A DNA stretch of 31,670 nt from a virus. A program made the translations under genes and the position numbers. The DNA is taken from positions 1 to 31,670 of the IMG/VR virus record IMGVR_UViG_3300017782_000112. One strand, written 5' to 3'. Shown one piece after another: positions 18,911 to 26,533 of this stretch. Within the stretch, counting starts at the first letter, position 1. Every line of letters begins with the position of its first letter. The notes below the pieces were generated by a model. The model was not told the origin of the DNA. It saw only the letters and a list, made by a program, of their open reading frames with translations, and ran no database searches.

Positions 18911-20215
18911 TTAAAAACCAGACGACTGAGTTTCAAAAGAGTATAGTGCGTATCGTAAAGCATCTGCCATGTGCGATGATCTATTATGCTTGGGCTTTTC
19001 TTTAGCTAAGTTAGGATTTGGATCCCACTGATACTGATCTAAGCAAGACAAGACTTCATCGCATCGCTGTTCGACCATTAGACTATTGTTATCTGTTATA
19101 CCTGCTACGTGCGATATTCCATCTAAAACCGACTTCTTAGCATTTATAGTAGTAATATCGTAGTTTTGTGCGAAGTCAAATCGAGTTTGCTGAGCAGCGG
19201 AATCTATATAAATGTAATCTATATCCCACTTGTCAACCATATCACGAATTACAGCGGCATGTTGCTCGGTAGTCTTTTCGGCATCCAGGTACTCGTCTAA
19301 AACGTAATATTTTTGCTCATCCCAATCATAAGCTATAACACAGAAAGCTGTTGGATCTCGATAACCAACGTCAAGCCCCGCAAATACATCCATATTAGAA
19401 AGGTCGAGTGCTGCATTATTAGCCACACATGTTTCGTGGTCAAAATTCCATATCTGCCCTTCGTAAGTATTGAAGTCTGCTTCATACTCCTGACGGAATT
19501 CAGCGTCTGACATACTTTTACGAGCTTCAATAATATCTTGTTCGGACATTCTTGGGTTGTCTTTATATGTTGCCCTTATAGAGCACCACTCTGAAAACTC
19601 GTCATTAAACCCTCTATCAAAAAATTCGGCAAACCAATTATTCCTGCCTCGGGGAGTAGAGATAAAGATTGCTTTAGAGTTTTCTTTATCTAGAGTAGGT
19701 CGAAGAGCGACATTAAAGGCGTCGCGCCCGTCTGCTAACGCTGCTTCGTCAAATATAATTAAGTCGTAACTTCGTCCTACACAGGAATCTACTTGATTTA
19801 TTGAACCCATACGTATTGTGGATCCATTACTTGTCTCAATAACTTTATCCTTAGCGTTGTCTTTTGTGACTTCAAGATCAAAATGCTTTATAAGATTCCT
19901 TTGTAGATCAAAAGAAATCTGAGACAGTGAGTAGTTGGGAGACATAATAAGGATGTTAGATGCTGGTATCAGAGATACGAGCTGTCCAATTATATTTGCA
20001 ATATAGGTTTTTCCTTGTCTGCGGCTTACAGCGGCACATACAAACCTATACTTAGGGCTATTAATTGCATTAATGATTGCCATTTGAGAAGGCAAGGGGG
20101 TGATACCGAGCAGACCTAAATAATCGTCTGCTGGTATCTTTAAGAAACGTGTCTCAGATTGTAAATCTAATATTTGTTCAGAGGGGATATCCGCTCTGCT
20201 AACCTGTACGGGCAT
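18911..20215 (-). CDS. terL: Terminase large subunit
   Basis: The 434-residue protein has the full set of TerL motifs. The ATPase half shows Walker A SRRQGKT (64-70), Walker B LIIFDEAA (152-159) and the coupling motif ISTPRG (185-190). The RNase H-fold nuclease half shows three acidic positions: D282 in AGLDVGYRDP, D338 in YIYIDSAAQQ and D418 in HMADALRYAL. The protein cuts concatemeric DNA and drives it into the prohead through the portal. Its start at 20215 has an AAGAAG-like ribosome site overlapping the end of the previous gene. TerS is about 2.6 kb upstream, with eight or nine small genes between, which is an unusual separation. Confidence 0.97.
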   Translation of the reverse strand: MPVQVSRADIPSEQILDLQSETRFLKIPADDYLGLLGITPLPSQMAIINAINSPKYRFVCAAVSRRQGKTYIANIIGQLVSLIPASNILIMSPNYSLSQISFDLQRNLIKHFDLEVTKDNAKDKVIETSNGSTIRMGSINQVDSCVGRSYDLIIFDEAALADGRDAFNVALRPTLDKENSKAIFISTPRGRNNWFAEFFDRGFNDEFSEWCSIRATYKDNPRMSEQDIIEARKSMSDAEFRQEYEADFNTYEGQIWNFDHETCVANNAALDLSNMDVFAGLDVGYRDPTAFCVIAYDWDEQKYYVLDEYLDAEKTTEQHAAVIRDMVDKWDIDYIYIDSAAQQTRFDFAQNYDITTINAKKSVLDGISHVAGITDNNSLMVEQRCDEVLSCLDQYQWDPNPNLAKEKPKHNRSSHMADALRYALYSFETQSSGF

Positions 20216-20378: not shown

Positions 20379-20946
20379 GGGTTCCTCTCCCTTTATGCCC
20401 ATTCCAAGCGGCAAAGCCTGCCAGTCTCAGAGCATAATAAGCTAGATAGTTTAGTACTTTAAATCCGTTAACTTCAATACATATATCACGGAATAAAGTA
20501 TCCATATACTTCTGATCGTGGTACCCGATGGTTGATCCATCTTTTTTCATTAAGGTAGCATACTTATATCCATAATCATGGACTAAACCACCCATTAATA
20601 ATACCCCTACAGGAGATAAGAAAGTAGCTAAAAATTTAGGTACGGAGGCCCCATCAAACTCAAAACCATAAGGTATCTTATACCCTATTCCGTTTAACCT
20701 GTAGTGAAAATCCTCTGTTATTACCCACTTACGAGTGCCTAATAACCACATAAGTATTCCGCCCCAGAAACCTTTACTAGCGGTTCGTATTGGGACAGGT
20801 TGCATTTTAGGCATTCTGTCATACTCGAAACCTACACGAGGCCCTTCATCTTTATCGCAAAGATTTACGGCAAATCCAATAAGTACAAGTACTCCAAGTA
20901 CTGTCCACTGCCAAAAATTCATTGCTAAGTCAATAAGCATATCCAT
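20362..20946 (-). CDS. DUF1353-like phage protein with N-terminal membrane segment
   Basis: The 194-residue protein has a hydrophobic segment at about residues 7-28 (LAMNFWQWTVLGVLVLIGFAV) and then a domain with KIPYGFEFDGASVPKF and GGLVHDYGYKYA, the signature of DUF1353 phage proteins. The conserved D/H residues in FDGAS and VHDY suggest a catalytic or metal-binding site, but the family has no established activity that I know of. The start ATG overlaps the stop of the EF-hand gene by one base. It lies in the run of small membrane proteins between TerS and TerL. A part in lysis or envelope modification is possible and unproven. Confidence 0.8.
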   Translation of the reverse strand: MDMLIDLAMNFWQWTVLGVLVLIGFAVNLCDKDEGPRVGFEYDRMPKMQPVPIRTASKGFWGGILMWLLGTRKWVITEDFHYRLNGIGYKIPYGFEFDGASVPKFLATFLSPVGVLLMGGLVHDYGYKYATLMKKDGSTIGYHDQKYMDTLFRDICIEVNGFKVLNYLAYYALRLAGFAAWNGHKGRGTHEILK

Positions 20947-21263
20947 TATTTTTTACTCCCTACTGCTTCCTTGGCATAAAATGCCGCTACAATAGCTGCA
21001 ACGGAAACGAAGTAGGTAGGGGCCATGCTCCCTAAAGTACTTGAAGCGTTAGACAGCCCTAATAATTCTGCGGCTACTACGGCGAAGGGATAAAGTAACA
21101 TACCACCAAGTGCAAACCAAGCCATGTTTCTCTGCGCATCTCGCATAGCATCTGCGTCTTCTAACTCTTTGCGCTTTGCCTCTAAGTACATTGCCTGCTC
21201 TGCGTCGGATACGTGCCCGTCACCATTAGTGTCTGCGGGGTGAAACGTCTTATCATCTACCAT
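20946..21263 (-). CDS. EF-hand membrane protein, possible holin-like
   Basis: The 105-residue protein has a complete EF-hand calcium loop at residues 11-22 (DTNGDGHVSDAE; ligand positions D11, N13, D15, H17, S19, E22), followed by a charged helix and two membrane segments at about 48-70 and 83-101. It ends EAVGSKK. Two membrane helices and small size fit class II holin architecture, and proteins of this kind occur in marine phages, but a calcium loop on a holin is not established. It overlaps the DUF6321-like gene by 7 bases. Both the calcium binding and the holin idea are inferences from sequence pattern. Confidence 0.8.
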   Translation of the reverse strand: MVDDKTFHPADTNGDGHVSDAEQAMYLEAKRKELEDADAMRDAQRNMAWFALGGMLLYPFAVVAAELLGLSNASSTLGSMAPTYFVSVAAIVAAFYAKEAVGSKK

Positions 21264-21562
21264 TTTACTTTATCCGCCCAATATGCTGCTGACATTTTGC
21301 CTTTAGCAATATTCTTAGCGTGTCTTGCTTTAAAACTTTTACGCTTCGCTTTGGCTGCTGCTGATTCTCCAGCCTTCGGCTTCCCTGCCGTTTTAGCTCC
21401 CTGCTGGCCGAAACGAATTGTCTTCACTTTACCACCAGCTCTAGCTACAACGATATGAGACTTCTTAGCATGGCCTGGAGTACGTTTTGGTTTATTATAA
21501 CCACTAACGCCTGCCCGTTTCAATCTTGAGTCTTTCTTCTTCGTTTTTCGCTTTGCTGGCAT
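21257..21562 (-). CDS. Small basic phage protein, DUF6321-like
   Basis: The 101-residue product is strongly basic. It starts MPAKRKTKKKDSRLKR and contains TPGHAKKSHIVVARAGGKVKTIRFGQQG and the closing KSFKARHAKNIAKGKMSAAYWADKVKW, phrases that recur in many marine phages and that I associate with DUF6321. GGAG lies 8 bases before the ATG. Function is not known. High Lys/Arg content and a position among other basic genes next to terminase suggest binding to DNA or RNA, which is inferred only from charge. Confidence 0.85.
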   Translation of the reverse strand: MPAKRKTKKKDSRLKRAGVSGYNKPKRTPGHAKKSHIVVARAGGKVKTIRFGQQGAKTAGKPKAGESAAAKAKRKSFKARHAKNIAKGKMSAAYWADKVKW

Positions 21563-21567
21563 AAAGT

Positions 21568-21750
21568 TTACTCCTTACTTGTGCTTACTGCACCTGCGAC
21601 ATCTTCACCGGCTGCGGTGGCTATGTCTGCTACTGCTGTTCCTACTCCTCCAAGAGTTCCGTTAATGATACCTTGAGTGCCGTCAATGGCTGCATTCATG
21701 GTTCCACAAGCTCCGAGTAGTAGTGCAGATACTATAACTAAATACTTCAT
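21568..21750 (-). CDS. Small lipoprotein
   Basis: The 60-residue protein has a short signal MKYLVIVSALLLGAC with a good lipobox (LGAC, cleavage before C15). Residue +2 is Gly, so sorting to the outer membrane is expected in a Gram-negative host. The mature part is about 46 residues, Gly/Ala/Thr-rich, repeating short GT and GG units. GGAG stands six bases before the ATG. Size and lipid anchor fit an outer-membrane spanin or a superinfection-exclusion lipoprotein; neither is shown. It is separated from the upstream basic gene by a probable terminator. Confidence 0.8.
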   Translation of the reverse strand: MKYLVIVSALLLGACGTMNAAIDGTQGIINGTLGGVGTAVADIATAAGEDVAGAVSTSKE

Positions 21751-21814
21751 TTGTTTCTCCGTATTGTCCTGCCCTTAGTCAAAATGTGTCCGATTAGTAG
21801 GGGAAGGGCCTTGC

Positions 21815-21837
21815 TGAAAAGTGCCACTTGACACTTT
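21815..21837 (-). terminator. Probable intrinsic terminator or attenuator
   Basis: On the minus strand AAAGTGTC (21837-21830) pairs with GGCACTTT (21825-21818) around an AAGT loop, with one G-U pair, followed by a short T run. It overlaps the stop of the DUF5872-like gene. The short T tract and modest GC content make it weaker than the two UUCG terminators, so partial termination is more likely. Confidence 0.55.
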
Positions 21838-22123
21838 ATTTCTTACCTCGTCTCATCCGTGCTTTACGCTTCTTTTTGACGAAGGTTTTTACCATAGTGG
21901 GTTTGCCACCTGGATTTCCTGCTCTTCTCTTACGACTTATTGCAGACTTCTTTTGTGCTGCTGTCATACGAGCCGCTTTTGCTGCTGGGACACACTTCGG
22001 ATAACCTTTTCCTTTCGCCTTCTTTCTTCCACAAGGCTTGTAGCCTCCGCCCTTCTTTGGTCGAGAAATATCTACCCACTTCTCTTTAAACCATTTGGTG
22101 AGTCCAGTATTGGATCGGGCCAC
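21836..22123 (-). CDS. Small basic phage protein, DUF5872-like
   Basis: The 95-residue protein starts at a GTG (22123) that overlaps the stop of the preceding gene. It shows GGGYKPCGRKKAKGKGYPKCVPAAKAARMTAAQKKSAISRKRRAG, the pattern of DUF5872-type proteins, with two conserved cysteines (KPCGR and YPKCVP). The ends are very basic (VKKKRKARMRRGKK). No function is established that I know of. It is the last member of a block of three abutting Lys/Arg-rich genes and could bind nucleic acid. Confidence 0.85.
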   Translation of the reverse strand: MARSNTGLTKWFKEKWVDISRPKKGGGYKPCGRKKAKGKGYPKCVPAAKAARMTAAQKKSAISRKRRAGNPGGKPTMVKTFVKKKRKARMRRGKK

Positions 22124-22287
22124 TACTTCTTTTTGCCTTTACGCTTCTTACGCATAATAGCCATTTGAAGTGCCTTTGGTAACTTTTTTTGTGCTGCCGT
22201 AAGTCCTGTAGACTTTTTCTTTGTGCCCTTACCTTTCTTGGCTGGACGTCCTCTTTTCTTTCCGTAAGTTCCTTTTCCTGCTGGCAT
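22123..22287 (-). CDS. Tiny Lys/Arg-rich protein with AT-hook
   Basis: The start is the ATG at 22287 (MPAGKGTYGKKRGRPAKKGKG, 54 residues): it overlaps the preceding stop as TAATG and has GGGAG six bases upstream. A longer frame reaches 22344 but lacks a ribosome site. Residues 10-17 (KKRGRPAK) match the AT-hook core RGRP that binds the minor groove of AT-rich DNA. The rest is almost all Lys, Arg, Gly and Ala (TAAQKKLPKALQMAIMRKKRKGKKK). The LTAAQKK phrase resembles MTAAQKK in the next gene, so the two may share ancestry. DNA binding is a reasonable inference in this AT-rich genome; the role is unknown. Confidence 0.75.
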   Translation of the reverse strand: MPAGKGTYGKKRGRPAKKGKGTKKKSTGLTAAQKKLPKALQMAIMRKKRKGKKK

Positions 22288-22481
22288 TACTTGCTCCCCA
22301 TGCGGTATGTACCGCCTCGTGCCTTGTATGTTTTTACAAGCCACCCATTTGCGTAAGCTGAAGGGTATACCTTAAATTTCCTCTTCGCCTCCGACTTCAC
22401 CCTTGAATAAAGTTTCTTGTTCGTAGGAACCGACTTCCTCTTCTTTGAGGTAGTCTTCGATCGTCGTCGCTTTGCTGGCAT
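22287..22481 (-). CDS. Tiny basic protein, unknown function
   Basis: The 64-residue protein starts MPAKRRRSKTTSKKRK and ends KVYPSAYANGWLVKTYKARGGTYRMGSK, a C-terminal phrase I recognise as recurring in small phage proteins and in the DUF5872 neighbourhood. The first 37 residues hold 17 Lys/Arg. Its 5' half overlaps the end of the upstream 79-residue gene by 110 bases in another frame, so its ribosome site lies inside that gene and is weak. Coupled translation is likely. Function unknown; nucleic-acid binding is suggested by charge. Confidence 0.75.
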   Translation of the reverse strand: MPAKRRRSKTTSKKRKSVPTNKKLYSRVKSEAKRKFKVYPSAYANGWLVKTYKARGGTYRMGSK

Positions 22482-22621: not shown

Positions 22622-22843
22622 CTAACCTAGAGGGGCTCCTGTTAGAATAAAAGATGCGATTATACCTGCTAAGAAAAGAATAATTCCTCCTGCAGATCTA
22701 ATTATCCTACCTTCTATTCTTGATAGAGTATCCTCTATACTATCCAAACGATGGAAGGTAGTTTTCCACCTTTCTTCGCACTGAACTTCGTGAGCATGTA
22801 GTCCTTTTTCTAGGTCTGCAACTTTATCACTTGTCTGATCCAT
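22622..22843 (-). CDS. Small coiled-coil membrane protein, XhlA-like
   Basis: The 73-residue protein has a heptad-like helix (ERWKTTFHRLDSIEDTLSRIEGRI, about residues 24-47) followed by one membrane segment (about 50-68, AGGIILFLAGIIASFIL). This layout fits the haemolysin XhlA family, small phage or prophage membrane proteins linked to lysis. It overlaps the end of TerS by 17 bases, so translation is likely coupled. It may act with the other small membrane proteins between TerS and TerL; a lysis role is inferred only from architecture. Confidence 0.72.
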   Translation of the reverse strand: MDQTSDKVADLEKGLHAHEVQCEERWKTTFHRLDSIEDTLSRIEGRIIRSAGGIILFLAGIIASFILTGAPLG

Positions 22844-23294
22844 TTAATAATTTATCCATGAGCTTGCCATAGTTCCCCTGACCAAATGGTAGAGACGCGT
22901 CATTTATCTGAACATTAGTCTGACTACGAATACTAGAGGTTTCGGCTTTTTGCAACTCTGCTTGTGCCTTTATCTCGTCCATTCGCATTTTATGCGCCAT
23001 CTGTAATAAGTCTGCAAGATCCTTAGAGGAGTACAACCCAGATTCTTGGGCCTCTTCTAGTTTACTGTTTATCATCTCGTCTAGTAAGGACGCAATATTG
23101 TTTTTATTGCGATAGCCTAAGTCAAGATATACTGTGTCAATATACTTTTTTACCTCTCGGGAATTTAATATATCTACGACTTTATTTTCACTTACTCCCA
23201 TGTATTCGGTAACTGCTCGAATATTGCCGAACTGCAGATAACTATTTGCTATCTCCAGGCCCTCTGGGGAAATGGTTGTTATTTCTTTAGTCAT
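22827..23294 (-). CDS. terS: Terminase small subunit (probable)
   Basis: The 155-residue protein starts with MTKEITTISPEGLEIANSYLQFGNIRAVTEYMGVSENKVVDILNSREVKKYIDTVYLDLG, a helix-turn-helix-like region as found in TerS proteins, where it recognises packaging DNA. Next comes a helical stretch (NNIASLLDEMINSKLEEAQESG), then a region likely to drive oligomer formation. It lies upstream of terL in the same direction, though about 2.6 kb away. It has its own perfect promoter whose predicted start falls at the ATG, so the mRNA would be leaderless. No Shine-Dalgarno sequence fits before 23294. Assignment rests on the N-terminal pattern, size and neighbourhood. Confidence 0.78.
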   Translation of the reverse strand: MTKEITTISPEGLEIANSYLQFGNIRAVTEYMGVSENKVVDILNSREVKKYIDTVYLDLGYRNKNNIASLLDEMINSKLEEAQESGLYSSKDLADLLQMAHKMRMDEIKAQAELQKAETSSIRSQTNVQINDASLPFGQGNYGKLMDKLLNGSDK

Positions 23295-23301
23295 GTTTGA
23301 A

Positions 23302-23347
23302 ATTATACTTTCTTAGGGTTATTTTGTCAAGGTATTTTTTTCTTAGG
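23302..23347 (-). promoter_or_regulatory. Sigma-70-type promoter P3 upstream of terS
   Basis: The -35 is TTGACA at 23330-23325 and the -10 is TATAAT at 23307-23302, both perfect, 17 bp apart. The shared upstream box is CCTAAGAAAAAAATA plus two bases (23347-23331); CCTAAGAAA also recurs inside the spacer, near the -10. Only 7 bases lie between the -10 and the terS ATG, so transcription should start at or next to the A of ATG. Confidence 0.9.
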
Positions 23348-23806
23348 TCAGTCAGACAAAGGGTTGTCTAGTGCTCTTTGTAGTTTCTTTTCTAGTCGAT
23401 CTTCTAGATCTTCCATGTCTTGATCAGAGTCTGCTTTCATAGCATCGCGCTTGGCTTCAAAGCGTTCACTTGCTTTATCAATCATATCTCGTACTTCGTT
23501 TTCCATAGTACGTACTTTATCTTCTGCGCGGTCTGCTTGCTTCTCGATCGCAAGTATATCATCTCGCAATCCAGTTTTAATGTCTCGTGTGTATTCAATA
23601 GCATCGTCGAGCTTTTGCTCTATTTGAAGGTTTCGTGCTGCAATAGCATCTGTATCAATATTCTGAACAATTTCTTTCATGTCCATATAATCTGCGTAAA
23701 ACTCAAAGCCTGCCCATGCTGCACCGCCAAGGGTGGAAAGTGCTGTAAGCATGACCATCATCTTACCGCCTTTGAAGGTCATACCTCCAAATTCAAACTC
23801 TGCCAT
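23348..23806 (-). CDS. Membrane-anchored coiled-coil protein, possible inner-membrane spanin type
   Basis: The 152-residue protein has a short N terminus (MAEFEFGGMTFKGGK), one membrane segment at about 16-36 (MMVMLTALSTLGGAAWAGFEF) and then over 100 residues of charged coiled coil (IEQKLDDAIEYTRDIKTGL ... MEDLEDRLEKKLQRAL). AGGAG stands five bases before the ATG. An N-terminal membrane anchor with a long helical outer part is the architecture of inner-membrane spanins, but also of many other phage membrane proteins, and orientation is not certain. It ends the exported-protein block, directly before promoter P3. Confidence 0.8.
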   Translation of the reverse strand: MAEFEFGGMTFKGGKMMVMLTALSTLGGAAWAGFEFYADYMDMKEIVQNIDTDAIAARNLQIEQKLDDAIEYTRDIKTGLRDDILAIEKQADRAEDKVRTMENEVRDMIDKASERFEAKRDAMKADSDQDMEDLEDRLEKKLQRALDNPLSD

Positions 23807-23807
23807 G

Positions 23808-24233
23808 TTACTCCTCTACAAATTGTAATCTCCTGAGATTAGCGATCTCTTGTTTTAACTTTGCTACTTCCATACGTTTCTTTTCTAATTCCAACTGATA
23901 AAGGGTATTACAATTGATACGCTCTTTTGGGGCACCAATTGGTATAGTTATTTTTGCATATACGCCTATATCTTGCGTTCTAGTGGATGGCATTGTGGCA
24001 TCATATACTGTATTGTAGGGATTTTGATGTCCATTATCAATAAATCCTACAACCCCGAATTCTACATTGGTAGCCGAACCAATGGCATTTTGGCAGTCTA
24101 ACTGCCCGGCTCTTATCCTATCAGACGCATACGACTGAGGAGAGGAAGGCAAATTCAGATTTAAAGAACTTGAGTCTGCCTTAACTATACTACTCAGAAG
24201 CAGAAAACTTAGTAATAATATAAGGTGCTTCAT
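23808..24233 (-). CDS. Exported protein with signal peptide and C-terminal coiled coil
   Basis: I place the start at the ATG at 24233 (MKHLILLLSFLLLSSIVKA, a clear signal peptide, cleavage after VKA), 141 residues; the longer frame to 24260 would start at a TTG inside the previous gene. The mature part begins DSSSLNLNLPSSPQSYASDRIRAG, has cysteines in LDCQNAIG and INCNTLYQ that may pair, a beta-rich centre (VEFGVVGFID ... IGVYAKITIPIG), and ends in a helix (ELEKKRMEVAKLKQEIANL). I recognise similar sequences from other marine phages, without a known function. It should be periplasmic or at the outer membrane. Confidence 0.78.
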   Translation of the reverse strand: MKHLILLLSFLLLSSIVKADSSSLNLNLPSSPQSYASDRIRAGQLDCQNAIGSATNVEFGVVGFIDNGHQNPYNTVYDATMPSTRTQDIGVYAKITIPIGAPKERINCNTLYQLELEKKRMEVAKLKQEIANLRRLQFVEE

Positions 24234-24238
24234 TTGTG

Positions 24239-24619
24239 TTACTCTTTTATTTTTGAACAAATCCTTGAGGTTATAATAGAAGGTTTATTTACACTTGCAA
24301 GAATCTTTGACTTTGAACATATGTAAGTTACTTTGTCAGAGTCTTGGGTACGTACATACACTTCTATGTTTTTTCTTTCTAAGTAAGAAAGATTAATAAG
24401 TTTATCTGTACTGGCAAAAACGATATTGTTCCAGTCTCTATCATAAACATTAATAGAGTACCAACTAATCTCTTCGCGATTGTTGAAAATACTCATATTT
24501 AGTACGCTCACTCCTTCTACGCCGCTGTACCGTAGCACAGGATACGTGGGAGTAAACTGGTGGGCACTTGCGCACCCACTAACTAACAATATAGCAAAAA
24601 ATATTACTGAGCGATACAT
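24239..24619 (-). CDS. Lipoprotein, unknown function
   Basis: The 126-residue protein has a lipoprotein signal MYRSVIFFAILLVSGC (lipobox VSGC, C16), and +2 is Ala, consistent with outer-membrane sorting. The mature part looks like an all-beta domain (VLRYSGVEGVSVLNMSIFNN, SWYSINVYDRDWNNIVFAS) with cysteines at YICSKS and RICSKIKE that may form a disulfide. It overlaps the upstream gene by 16 bases and is followed after 5 bases by the next exported protein, so the genes are co-translated. Function unknown; outer-membrane spanin or receptor-blocking roles are only possibilities. Confidence 0.78.
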   Translation of the reverse strand: MYRSVIFFAILLVSGCASAHQFTPTYPVLRYSGVEGVSVLNMSIFNNREEISWYSINVYDRDWNNIVFASTDKLINLSYLERKNIEVYVRTQDSDKVTYICSKSKILASVNKPSIITSRICSKIKE

Positions 24620-25092
24620 TCTGCGGTTACCATGGCGCTATAGTCTCCCGCAGGGAAAGACTTATCATAACCATAGTCTGCTGTAGAATCTACATCAAAC
24701 CACACACTCCCAGCAATCGTTAAATCAAACTCAACTGTATTATTGTACTCAATCTTACTAGTCTCAAATGCAGACATGCCAGCATCTGATGTTTGACCTA
24801 CAGCAACATCTCCGGTCCAATTTACTACGTCTTCCAGCTCCGGGCTAGAAGAAAAAGAATTGGGATAAGAAATTACTGCTTTATAGTGATCGGCAGCTAA
24901 GATGTCATAACGAATGATTGGCTTTACACCGCCATCACCCGAAGCCGTACTTAGTTCACTCGGACTAGGGTTACCGTAAACACCTGAAGTGTCTGTTTGA
25001 ATAACACATTTACTTTCTACTGTACCTAAAATGGGCACATTGGCTAGAGCTACACAAGGTAACACAGCTAGGGCTAGTAGGGACTTTTTCAT
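24604..25092 (-). CDS. Exported beta-sandwich-like protein
   Basis: The start is the ATG at 25092 (MKKSLLALAVLPCVALA, a classic signal peptide); an ATG four codons upstream lacks a better ribosome site. The mature 145 residues have short strands and turns typical of a secreted beta sandwich. Two cysteines, one near the start (VESKCVIQ) and one near the end (VTAECIAQ), could close the domain as in fimbrial or spore-coat-U-type subunits. FPAGDYSAMVTAECIAQ at the C terminus is the part most like such subunits. No chaperone or usher gene is present, so fimbrial assembly is unlikely. Function unknown. Confidence 0.76.
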   Translation of the reverse strand: MKKSLLALAVLPCVALANVPILGTVESKCVIQTDTSGVYGNPSPSELSTASGDGGVKPIIRYDILAADHYKAVISYPNSFSSSPELEDVVNWTGDVAVGQTSDAGMSAFETSKIEYNNTVEFDLTIAGSVWFDVDSTADYGYDKSFPAGDYSAMVTAECIAQ

Positions 25093-25135
25093 ATAAGGTT
25101 CCATTTATTAGGCTCTCGCCTCTCCGGTAGTGTTA

Positions 25136-25996
25136 TTAATCATATTGGGCCTCTACCATTTCTTCATGAAGCAATTGCTGAGCCAGCCCAACTCTCTTTG
25201 CTTTCTTATTATCTGGTAATTTTCCATCTACCAGCACTACTGTGTCCGCATACACTCCACCATTTAATGATCCCGTGTAACTGCGAGGAATATAGTTCAT
25301 TGCGAAAAGTGTTTGTTCTGTTATTGAAGCCTGAGCAGTCATTGCTGACATATTCAAGCCTCCAAGCATCTTCTCTAAATTTACCTTAATTTTTTTATTT
25401 CGTTGTTTACGCTCGTACTCTTCCTCTTCAGCAATCTTTGCCTGTTTTTCCATTTCTGCGATAACATACTCATCTTGCAGTGGGTCATTAAACTCTACTA
25501 CAGGTATAAGCGAGGGGTCGTACGGAGTAACATAGTCAGGGCAGGAGGGATCCGATTGAGGGTCGAAACAAGGATCGTATCTATAACTATAAACCACTGA
25601 AGGGTCTACTACTTGTCCGTTTCCGTCTATTTCGATGGAGCCATCGCCCCACGCTTCAATTGGTATATCTCCTACTCCAATTACTTTATAAATCTTGTTG
25701 CCAGGTAATCCTGACCAGTCATCTGCTTCTCGAAAGATATACCCATCTCCAAGCGCATTTTCATTCTGAACGTAGACAACCATATCATCTTCTACGTTTT
25801 TCACAGCTTCGTAACGGTACACTACAGAGCCCACAGTAAGACCTGCTTGCTGTGGGAGAACATTTTGCATTACCCAATCATAGGCAGTTGTTCTGGCTTG
25901 TCCTGTAACTATCTCAGAGTATGAGTAGGGCGCCAAGCAAGCTAAGTACACCACCAAGGCCGAATAATGTATTTTTGGTATTTTCGTCCATTGCAT
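25136..25996 (-). CDS. Exported protein with Cys-Pro-rich middle and helical tail
   Basis: The 286-residue protein has an N-terminal hydrophobic segment (ALVVYLACLAPYSYS, about residues 13-27) that fits a signal peptide. Residues 30-135 are beta-rich (TVGSVVYRYEAV, DDMVVYVQNEN, GNKIYKVIGVGDIPIEAWGDG). Residues about 143-165 are Asp/Pro-rich with CFDPQSDPSCPDYVTPYD. From about 180 a charged helix follows (AEMEKQAKIAEEEEYERKQ), then a C-terminal domain. It starts inside the preceding gene (83-base overlap) with AGGAG about 10 bases upstream. I do not recognise a function; similar proteins seem to travel with the neighbouring exported genes. Confidence 0.75.
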   Translation of the reverse strand: MQWTKIPKIHYSALVVYLACLAPYSYSEIVTGQARTTAYDWVMQNVLPQQAGLTVGSVVYRYEAVKNVEDDMVVYVQNENALGDGYIFREADDWSGLPGNKIYKVIGVGDIPIEAWGDGSIEIDGNGQVVDPSVVYSYRYDPCFDPQSDPSCPDYVTPYDPSLIPVVEFNDPLQDEYVIAEMEKQAKIAEEEEYERKQRNKKIKVNLEKMLGGLNMSAMTAQASITEQTLFAMNYIPRSYTGSLNGGVYADTVVLVDGKLPDNKKAKRVGLAQQLLHEEMVEAQYD

Positions 25997-26459
25997 CTTC
26001 GTCTTTCTCCTCTAGAGGCTCTTCTTCTCTATGAGTTTCCCAACCTGCTTTTGCCTCTGGGCCAATCATACCATCGTAGGGGCAGGGTGTTCCTGCCATC
26101 ATCATTGCATCAAATACACGTTTATCTTGACACATTACTGAAACTGCAGCTACTTTCATACCCATGTCATAAAGAGTCTTTGCATTCTTTAATTTCTCAC
26201 AATTCATGTCTCTTGTCGTAGTTCCCATAGAGATGCCAAGAATTTGGGTTTGTACTGCACCTGCGACACCTACTGTACACAAGTCCGAGTTAGAAATATT
26301 CATTGTCGGAGTTATTGCTGAAGGTGGGGGTGATTCTAGTTTTGTTGTTGTAGTGCTATTTATAGTACTGTCTGTAGTAGAGTCTGTCACAATGACGTCT
26401 TCCTCTTGTGCCAGTGCTATTGAAGATAAACACATTAACAACCATAAAGCCTTTTTCAT
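25914..26459 (-). CDS. Exported protein with C-terminal membrane anchor
   Basis: The 181-residue protein is the first gene after promoter P2. It has a signal peptide (MKKALWLLMCLSSIALAQ), a Thr/Ser-rich linker (about 24-50), and a conserved-looking domain with four cysteines: SDLCTVG, RDMNCEKLKN, SVMCQDKR and AGTPCPYDG. Then comes an acidic stretch (HREEEPLEEKDEDAMDEN) and a hydrophobic end (TLFGLGGVLSLLGALLIL, about 164-181) with nothing after it. This layout suggests a periplasmic domain held by a C-terminal anchor. AGAGG lies about 11 bases before the ATG. Role unknown; it is likely to work with the five exported or membrane proteins that follow. Confidence 0.8.
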   Translation of the reverse strand: MKKALWLLMCLSSIALAQEEDVIVTDSTTDSTINSTTTTKLESPPPSAITPTMNISNSDLCTVGVAGAVQTQILGISMGTTTRDMNCEKLKNAKTLYDMGMKVAAVSVMCQDKRVFDAMMMAGTPCPYDGMIGPEAKAGWETHREEEPLEEKDEDAMDENTKNTLFGLGGVLSLLGALLIL

Positions 26460-26487: not shown

Positions 26488-26533
26488 ATTATACCTTACC
26501 GGTAATACTTTGTCAAGGTTTATTTTTCTAACC
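26488..26533 (-). promoter_or_regulatory. Sigma-70-type promoter P2 of the exported-protein operon
   Basis: The -35 is TTGACA at 26516-26511 and the -10 is TATAAT at 26493-26488, both perfect, 17 bp apart. Upstream is GGTTAGAAAAATA plus four bases (26533-26517), a variant of the shared box that overlaps the stop codon of the upstream gene. The spacer contains a perfect palindrome TTACCGGTAA (26496-26505), a possible operator. Predicted transcription start is near 26481, leaving a leader of about 22 bases that carries AGAGG. Confidence 0.9.

Follow-up and report, generated by a model that had tools for sequence, protein, structure and literature searches.

What would a phage gain from six adjacent genes for exported or membrane-anchored proteins? 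The question is raised by a 31.7-kb virus fragment (IMG/VR record IMGVR_UViG_3300017782_000112, positions 1 to 31,670; the window below means this whole stretch), in which six minus-strand genes, named A to F in transcription order, follow one another from 26459 to 23348. A preliminary description, made from the letters alone, had pointed to the row and offered a multi-protein envelope complex as a plausible but unproven reading. All six open reading frames (ORFs) are present where it had placed them. The evidence favors such a complex, and no database family names A to F. Our analysis points to a structure, so far undescribed, that infected bacteria would be induced to assemble in or on the cell envelope. 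To the specific reading, that A to F form one exported multi-protein assembly for late envelope modification of a Gram-negative host, we give an even chance.

The six genes are not scattered singly. Loci from IMG/VR scans with B, E, A, and F (L009-L276) were pooled with the isolate loci and the window, giving 94 contig clusters with no sampled 80-mer in common. The complete order A-B-C-D-E-F is found in 67 of the 94, the window counted, a share that is no census because only the best 80 matches per query were retained. Most of the remaining clusters are cut by a contig end, and a few have A-B-F, A-F, or A alone. These partial sets include pelagiphages, a roseophage, and the N4-like phage JWAlpha; some pelagiphages have A alone and HTVC115P has A, B, and F. 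Additional genes are tolerated between E and F in some loci. Median pairwise identities from A to F are 58, 40, 53, 42, 51, and 42%, with minima of 18-43%; between genes, the correlation of pairwise distances is 0.46-0.69.

The cassette is also found on differing backbones, in marine phages that are unrelated and for the most part uncultured. That of the window phage is a lambda-like siphophage, with PHROG matches for a portal, a fused protease/capsid protein, a large terminase, and lambda-type tail proteins. Others are T4-like contigs in which the cassette lies beside genes for UvsX, a replicative helicase, a T4-type polymerase, and PhoH. The genome position of the cassette differs between phages and any neighboring family is present in at most 28 of 67 loci. 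Frozen synteny was rejected as the cause of the co-occurrence, since the cassette has differing flanks and C, D, and E change their order from lineage to lineage. Conservation of the order across distantly related marine phages, in a cassette not found as a whole in isolates, points to a strong, general, and so far unnamed benefit.

The isolates were represented by 50,697 phage records, and the whole A-F cassette was found in none of them. By tblastn of these records, B and C had no match and F matched pelagiphage HTVC115P only. The B of HTVC115P is the only pelagiphage B to score against cassette B (E-value 7.6e-5); homology of the other pelagiphage "B" proteins to it is not supported (profile P of 3). 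A fusion of the E helix to pelagiphage B proteins, whose C-termini look alike, was dropped when profile comparison gave P below 3. The F homologue of Roseobacter phage CRP-810 (L006:7219-7641) carries the public label "lysozyme"; its sequence is that of a membrane-anchored coiled coil.

Database families do not name the proteins. Searches of A to F against Pfam, NCBIfam (with A to E), and PHROG gave no convincing family of known function. A to E match only PHROGs of unknown function, A being PHROG 20531 (E-value 7.5e-15), and F has only chance-level matches. The preliminary description had seen no clear peptidoglycan hydrolase or holin among the six, and no such family in Pfam or PHROG matches them. 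Profile searches with A to E against PDB sequences returned chance matches only and no solved relative by sequence. A literature search, to which most subscription journals were closed, found no description of a cassette of this gene composition.

Export is a shared property of the proteins, as had been claimed. A simple signal-peptide rule is satisfied by 90-99% of A to E homologues, compared with 11% of 1000 other genes from the same loci. It is also satisfied by 85% of F homologues because of their N-terminal membrane helix. In alignments of the homologues, invariant cysteines number four in A, two each in B, C, D, and E, and none in F; the even counts in A to E agree with the paired cysteines noted earlier and would suit periplasmic disulfides. 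The C-terminal anchor assigned to A was borne out, its tail being hydrophobic in 67 of 67 homologues. The lipoprotein assignment of D did not survive comparison. A lipobox is present in only 3 of 67 homologues, while 41 have a cleavage site of the A-x-A↓H type, the likely site in the window D being ASA↓HQ; a lipoprotein is improbable. The predicted first residue of mature D is histidine in most of the phages; several relatives from isolate phages and gammaproteobacteria-like sources share it, and those of Rhizobiales do not. We considered a copper protein on account of this mature N-terminal histidine and rejected it, as there is no second conserved histidine and the Rhizobiales D lacks the N-terminal one.

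Apart from D, the proteins offer the following features. A has a highly conserved four-cysteine domain at about residues 45-140. In the structure model of B, a jelly-roll-type domain (residues 28-143) is followed by a cysteine pair (143/152) and a long helix (176-233), and the C-terminal helix is conserved as AQQLLHEEMVxxQY. The DP-rich linker reported for B is present, but it leads into the long predicted helix after the jelly-roll domain. The jelly-roll domain has many unrelated matches at Z 7-9, too low to assign one family, and an attempt to name it from them was abandoned. The cysteines of C are C33 and C163. E has two conserved strand-like motifs, VEFGVVG and DIGVYAKITIPIG, with a cysteine pair at 47/108 (alignment numbering), and may reside in the outer membrane. 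F, from its sequence, has an N-terminal inner-membrane anchor, then a periplasmic coiled coil with a conserved LDNPL in its C-terminal part, so that its earlier description as a membrane-anchored coiled coil held up.

D gives the clearest lead to a function. It has 126 residues and one domain in all homologues, and AlphaFold2 modeled it with a predicted local distance difference test (pLDDT) score of 90. The first 16 Foldseek matches of the model are the pilus chaperones PapD, SafB, DraB, FaeE, and Caf1M (best E-value 5e-5), and VIA-align gave Z 10.8 against Caf1M and 9.9 against CsuC over residues 16-126. Of its cysteines, only 101 and 121, both in the last two strands, are conserved across 16 divergent homologues. 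FGL chaperones have a cysteine pair on their last two strands. Sequence profiles point the same way: bacterial D proteins scored P 56-74 against Rhizobiales PapD_N chaperones over the whole domain (E-values 2e-5 to 4e-6), the broad D family scored P 48-74 against PapD_N, and the other cassette profiles scored P below 2. The assignment of D as a one-domain PapD-like fold is well supported by the fold and profile comparisons, and the protein may act as a chaperone.

The bacterial D proteins belong to a smaller unit, C-D-E, that is an older, separable core also living in bacterial chromosomes, as judged from sequence. The chromosome of Nitratireductor soli (NZ_LFVY01000006, L283:9068-14157) carries C-D-E as three triplets in tandem, with A, B, and F lacking. 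A corrinoid-protein-like gene lies upstream of these triplets, for which there is no annotated family. Within the taxonomic order of Nitratireductor, E is encoded in 6 of 297 genomes, with C and D before it in all six; across the phylum it is encoded in 10 of 398, with C and D adjoining it in most. In three gammaproteobacteria-like loci (L320-L322), D-like and C-like exported ORFs flank E. The bacterial C-D-E genes are chromosomal or plasmid-borne with ordinary genes around them, always unannotated and outside phage genes, and A, B, and F do not accompany them in the stretches read. Phage and bacterial profiles match at P 98 for C, 97.7 for D, and 99.6 for E; individual comparisons of phage D with bacterial D gave P 97.6-97.8 (E-value about 1e-11). 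A further match of gammaproteobacterial and isolate-phage C (A12) to bacterial C, at P 75-92, was confined to the signal peptide region and was not used for homology. In the scan of bacterial genomes with E, all of A to F also turned up together on four contigs, one belonging to a metagenome-assembled genome and the other three to a single metagenome bin; these are probably phage contigs.

The isolate phages found with E also have triads, all unannotated: C-D-E in Vibrio phage PS14A.1, and D-E-C in Vibrio phage 2.275, Erwinia phage pEp_SNUABM_01, and Klebsiella phage Eowyn. Because the order changes while the linkage stays, C, D, and E appear to be functionally linked rather than held together by frozen synteny. 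These isolate triads and the Rhizobiales chromosomes provide an experimental entry point. Outside the core, A-like genes are encoded in 2 of the 398 genomes of the phylum, and B had no match among them in a search that had no positive control. One of the A-like genes (L326:519-1974) adjoins a gene for a secreted low-complexity protein rich in Gly, Ala, Ser, Thr, and Asn, with a fiber-like make-up; a similar low-complexity protein is present at the other A-like locus (L327:2095-2787).

From these observations an assembly can be proposed. Late-gene transcription would provide the six proteins, and Sec would carry five of them into the periplasm, where their disulfides would form. There, D would hold or cap the beta subunit C as a periplasmic chaperone working without an usher, and E, possibly with B, would make up the partner in the outer membrane or facing the surface. 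The assembly would be tied to the inner membrane by A and F, leaving a product that crosses the envelope of the infected cell or decorates it. This product would most likely serve to modify the envelope late in infection, whether by blocking superinfection, by clumping or retaining neighboring cells, or by preparing release, without being the endolysin or spanin step itself. We also consider a more elaborate scheme, which seems to us rather unlikely. In it, C-D-E is a hitherto undescribed, usher-less chaperone-subunit-export system of bacteria that phages have repeatedly captured, E forms a small-subunit outer-membrane pore or platform of its own, and marine phages added A, B, and F for inner-membrane coupling, yielding a transenvelope structure on infected cells.

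Several points weigh against the proposed assembly. No secretion pore was identified, the late timing is deduced from gene position only, and every function is derived from sequence and models. The retention of the best matches favored close relatives. In the three D-E-C isolate phages, only the profile match of E reaches clear significance, that of D lying at 0.002-0.08, and homology of C and D leans more on position, signal peptide, and cysteines than on significant profile scores. A lipobox is possible in the window D, and in the window phage the protein would then be a lipoprotein. The similarity of C and bacterial C to SCPU pilins is weak (profile P 0.1-11, E-value about 0.003) and C-terminal, with no Pfam match. 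Phage D alone scored P below 2 against PapD_N, so the link to chaperones passes through bacterial D, and D has no second chaperone domain. D is also near MSP domains, Spd-2, and other Ig-like domains (VIA-align Z 9-10.6). Because such other Ig-like domains score Z 9-10, the fold alone is no proof of a chaperone.

Some of these same points would fit D being a structural Ig-like subunit and no chaperone, with C, D, and E forming a stable three-part complex without donor-strand chemistry, which would be compatible with any function of the cassette. The scores of chaperones are only slightly above those of MSP and other Ig-like domains, D lacks a domain 2 and has a cysteine of its own on its last strand, and C is only weakly like SCPU. 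However, the top Foldseek rows and the sole sequence-profile signal are both to pilus chaperones, leaving a structural D a serious contender that we nevertheless find somewhat less than probable.

The neighborhood of the cassette raises a second alternative, a lysis module, in which F would work like an inner-membrane spanin, E, B, and A would have the outer membrane as their target, and the whole complex would disrupt or gate the envelope at the end of infection. Against an envelope-modifying assembly, 27 of 69 cassettes have endolysin or spanin markers no more than 4 kb away, and lysis markers are densest 0-4 kb downstream, at 1.2-1.3 per 10 kb compared with 0-0.7 elsewhere. A holin-like family with an EF-hand and two helices is found 0-3.2 kb downstream in most loci having that family, pelagiphage HTVC023P has an M15 peptidase after A, a B-like gene, and an F-like gene, and a lysis proposal has been published for phage CsgGF pores (PMC9004378). 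However, the cassette occurs together with recognizable Rz/Rz1-like proteins and endolysins and is therefore no replacement for them, and a lethal role is hard to reconcile with a C-D-E core that bacterial chromosomes carry, that of Nitratireductor in three copies. As classical endolysins and spanins coexist nearby, surface modification is likelier than lysis machinery; the chaperone-like D and the C-D-E core shared with bacterial chromosomes likewise favor an envelope or surface structure over a lysis device. A lysis module seems to us unlikely.

The position of the window cassette, between tail-fiber/tail-chaperone genes and the small terminase gene (PHROG matches), also fits some or all six proteins being parts of the virion that travel through the periplasm or join particles at release, as does the resemblance of the B jelly-roll domain to adhesin, capsid, and tail-tip domains. 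Yet five of the six proteins have Sec signal peptides and invariant cysteines, a poor fit to cytoplasmic assembly, the position varies between phages, and C-D-E is found in bacteria outside phage genes; this explanation is decidedly improbable. Our ranking thus places envelope or surface modification ahead of lysis, and lysis ahead of virion parts.

The layout of the window cassette is summarized in Table 1. The promoter called P2 in the preliminary description is a perfect one. Sites of this TTGACA-N17-TATAAT type number three in the window compared with 0.02 expected from shuffled sequences. With one before A and another before the small terminase gene, A to F are most simply their own transcription unit. 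Several of the genes overlap, as had been noticed: A/B by 83 nucleotides (nt) and C/D by 16 nt, with gaps of 31 nt (B-C), 5 nt (D-E), and 1 nt (E-F), none above 31 nt. In the A/B overlap (25914-25996; roughly 60-100 nt in relatives), the hydrophobic tail of A and the signal peptide of B are encoded by one DNA in two frames. For E, the ATG start is favored, the listed TTG at 24260 being less likely.

Table 1. The A-F cassette of the window and the features that follow it
Feature	Position	Strand	Description
Cassette promoter	26488..26516	-	TTGACA-17-TATAAT, 12/12 consensus bases; 28 nt before A
Gene A	25914..26459	-	Signal peptide, Ser/Thr-rich linker, four-cysteine domain, hydrophobic C-terminal tail anchor
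Gene B	25136..25996	-	Signal peptide, jelly-roll-type beta domain, cysteine pair, long helix, conserved C-terminal helix
Gene C	24604..25104	-	Signal peptide, two-cysteine secreted protein, predicted beta-rich, weakly SCPU-pilin-like
Gene D	24239..24619	-	Signal peptide, single PapD-like domain
Gene E	23808..24233	-	Signal peptide, two strand-like motifs, cysteine pair, C-terminal charged helix
Gene F	23348..23806	-	N-terminal membrane anchor, periplasmic coiled coil, C-terminal LDNPL motif, no cysteines
Second perfect sigma-70 promoter	23302..23330	-	Precedes terminase small subunit gene
Terminase small subunit	22827..23294	-	Outside the cassette, first gene after F; PHROG 3802, E-value 2.8e-37

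Beyond the cassette, the large terminase (18911-20215) is closest, at 49%, to that of Vibrio phages of about 113 kb, despite the lambda-like tail module. Several small, very lysine/arginine-rich ORFs lie between the terminase genes (21257-22481), with similar ORFs in pelagiphage HTVC023P and CRP-810; they possibly encode DNA-binding or virion-internal proteins. A small protein encoded at 20946-21263 has an EF-hand-like N-terminus and two hydrophobic helices, is holin-like, and has no PHROG match; it occurs near the cassette in about 28 loci.

How does the cassette compare with known systems? It shares with the chaperone-usher pili (Caf1M/FGL and Csu/SCPU) a PapD-family fold, that of the first chaperone domain, in D, next to which is the small secreted two-cysteine C with its weak C-terminal SCPU similarity. 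The chaperones of those pili have two domains and about 200-230 residues, in contrast to the one domain and 126 residues of D. The usher (PF00577) is missing from the cassette, none of A to F being large enough or matching it in Pfam, and the Nitratireductor genome with three C-D-E copies had no usher match in a search whose E. coli control was positive. Nothing in these pili corresponds to E, A, B, or F. With no usher and a one-domain D, C-D-E lies outside the chaperone-usher pathway on two defining features, though part of it may work alike. If the chaperone reading is true, the core would be an usher-less branch of chaperone-assisted surface structures. The C-D-E operons of Pseudomonadota, annotated as hypothetical proteins, are direct and linked homologues of C, D, and E. 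Like the Rz/Rz1 spanins, F is by its sequence an inner-membrane-anchored periplasmic coiled coil, and the cassette is often near lysis genes; however, F and D match no spanin PHROG and Rz/Rz1-like proteins coexist in other cassette loci.

Phage-encoded curli is the nearest published precedent. Pelagiphage curli (type VIII secretion) modules have been proposed, without proof, to act in clumping, superinfection defense, or lysis timing (PMC9599517, PMC7029224, PMC9004378), with a role in lysis put forward for the CsgGF pores by Buchholz et al. (PMC9004378). The composition is unrelated, A to F having no CsgG, CsgF, or curlin match in Pfam, NCBIfam (A to E), or PHROG. Like the cassette, phage curli is a multi-gene envelope or surface module of conserved order that has moved between phage families, and the cassette, if D is a chaperone, would be a second phage-borne surface system beside it.

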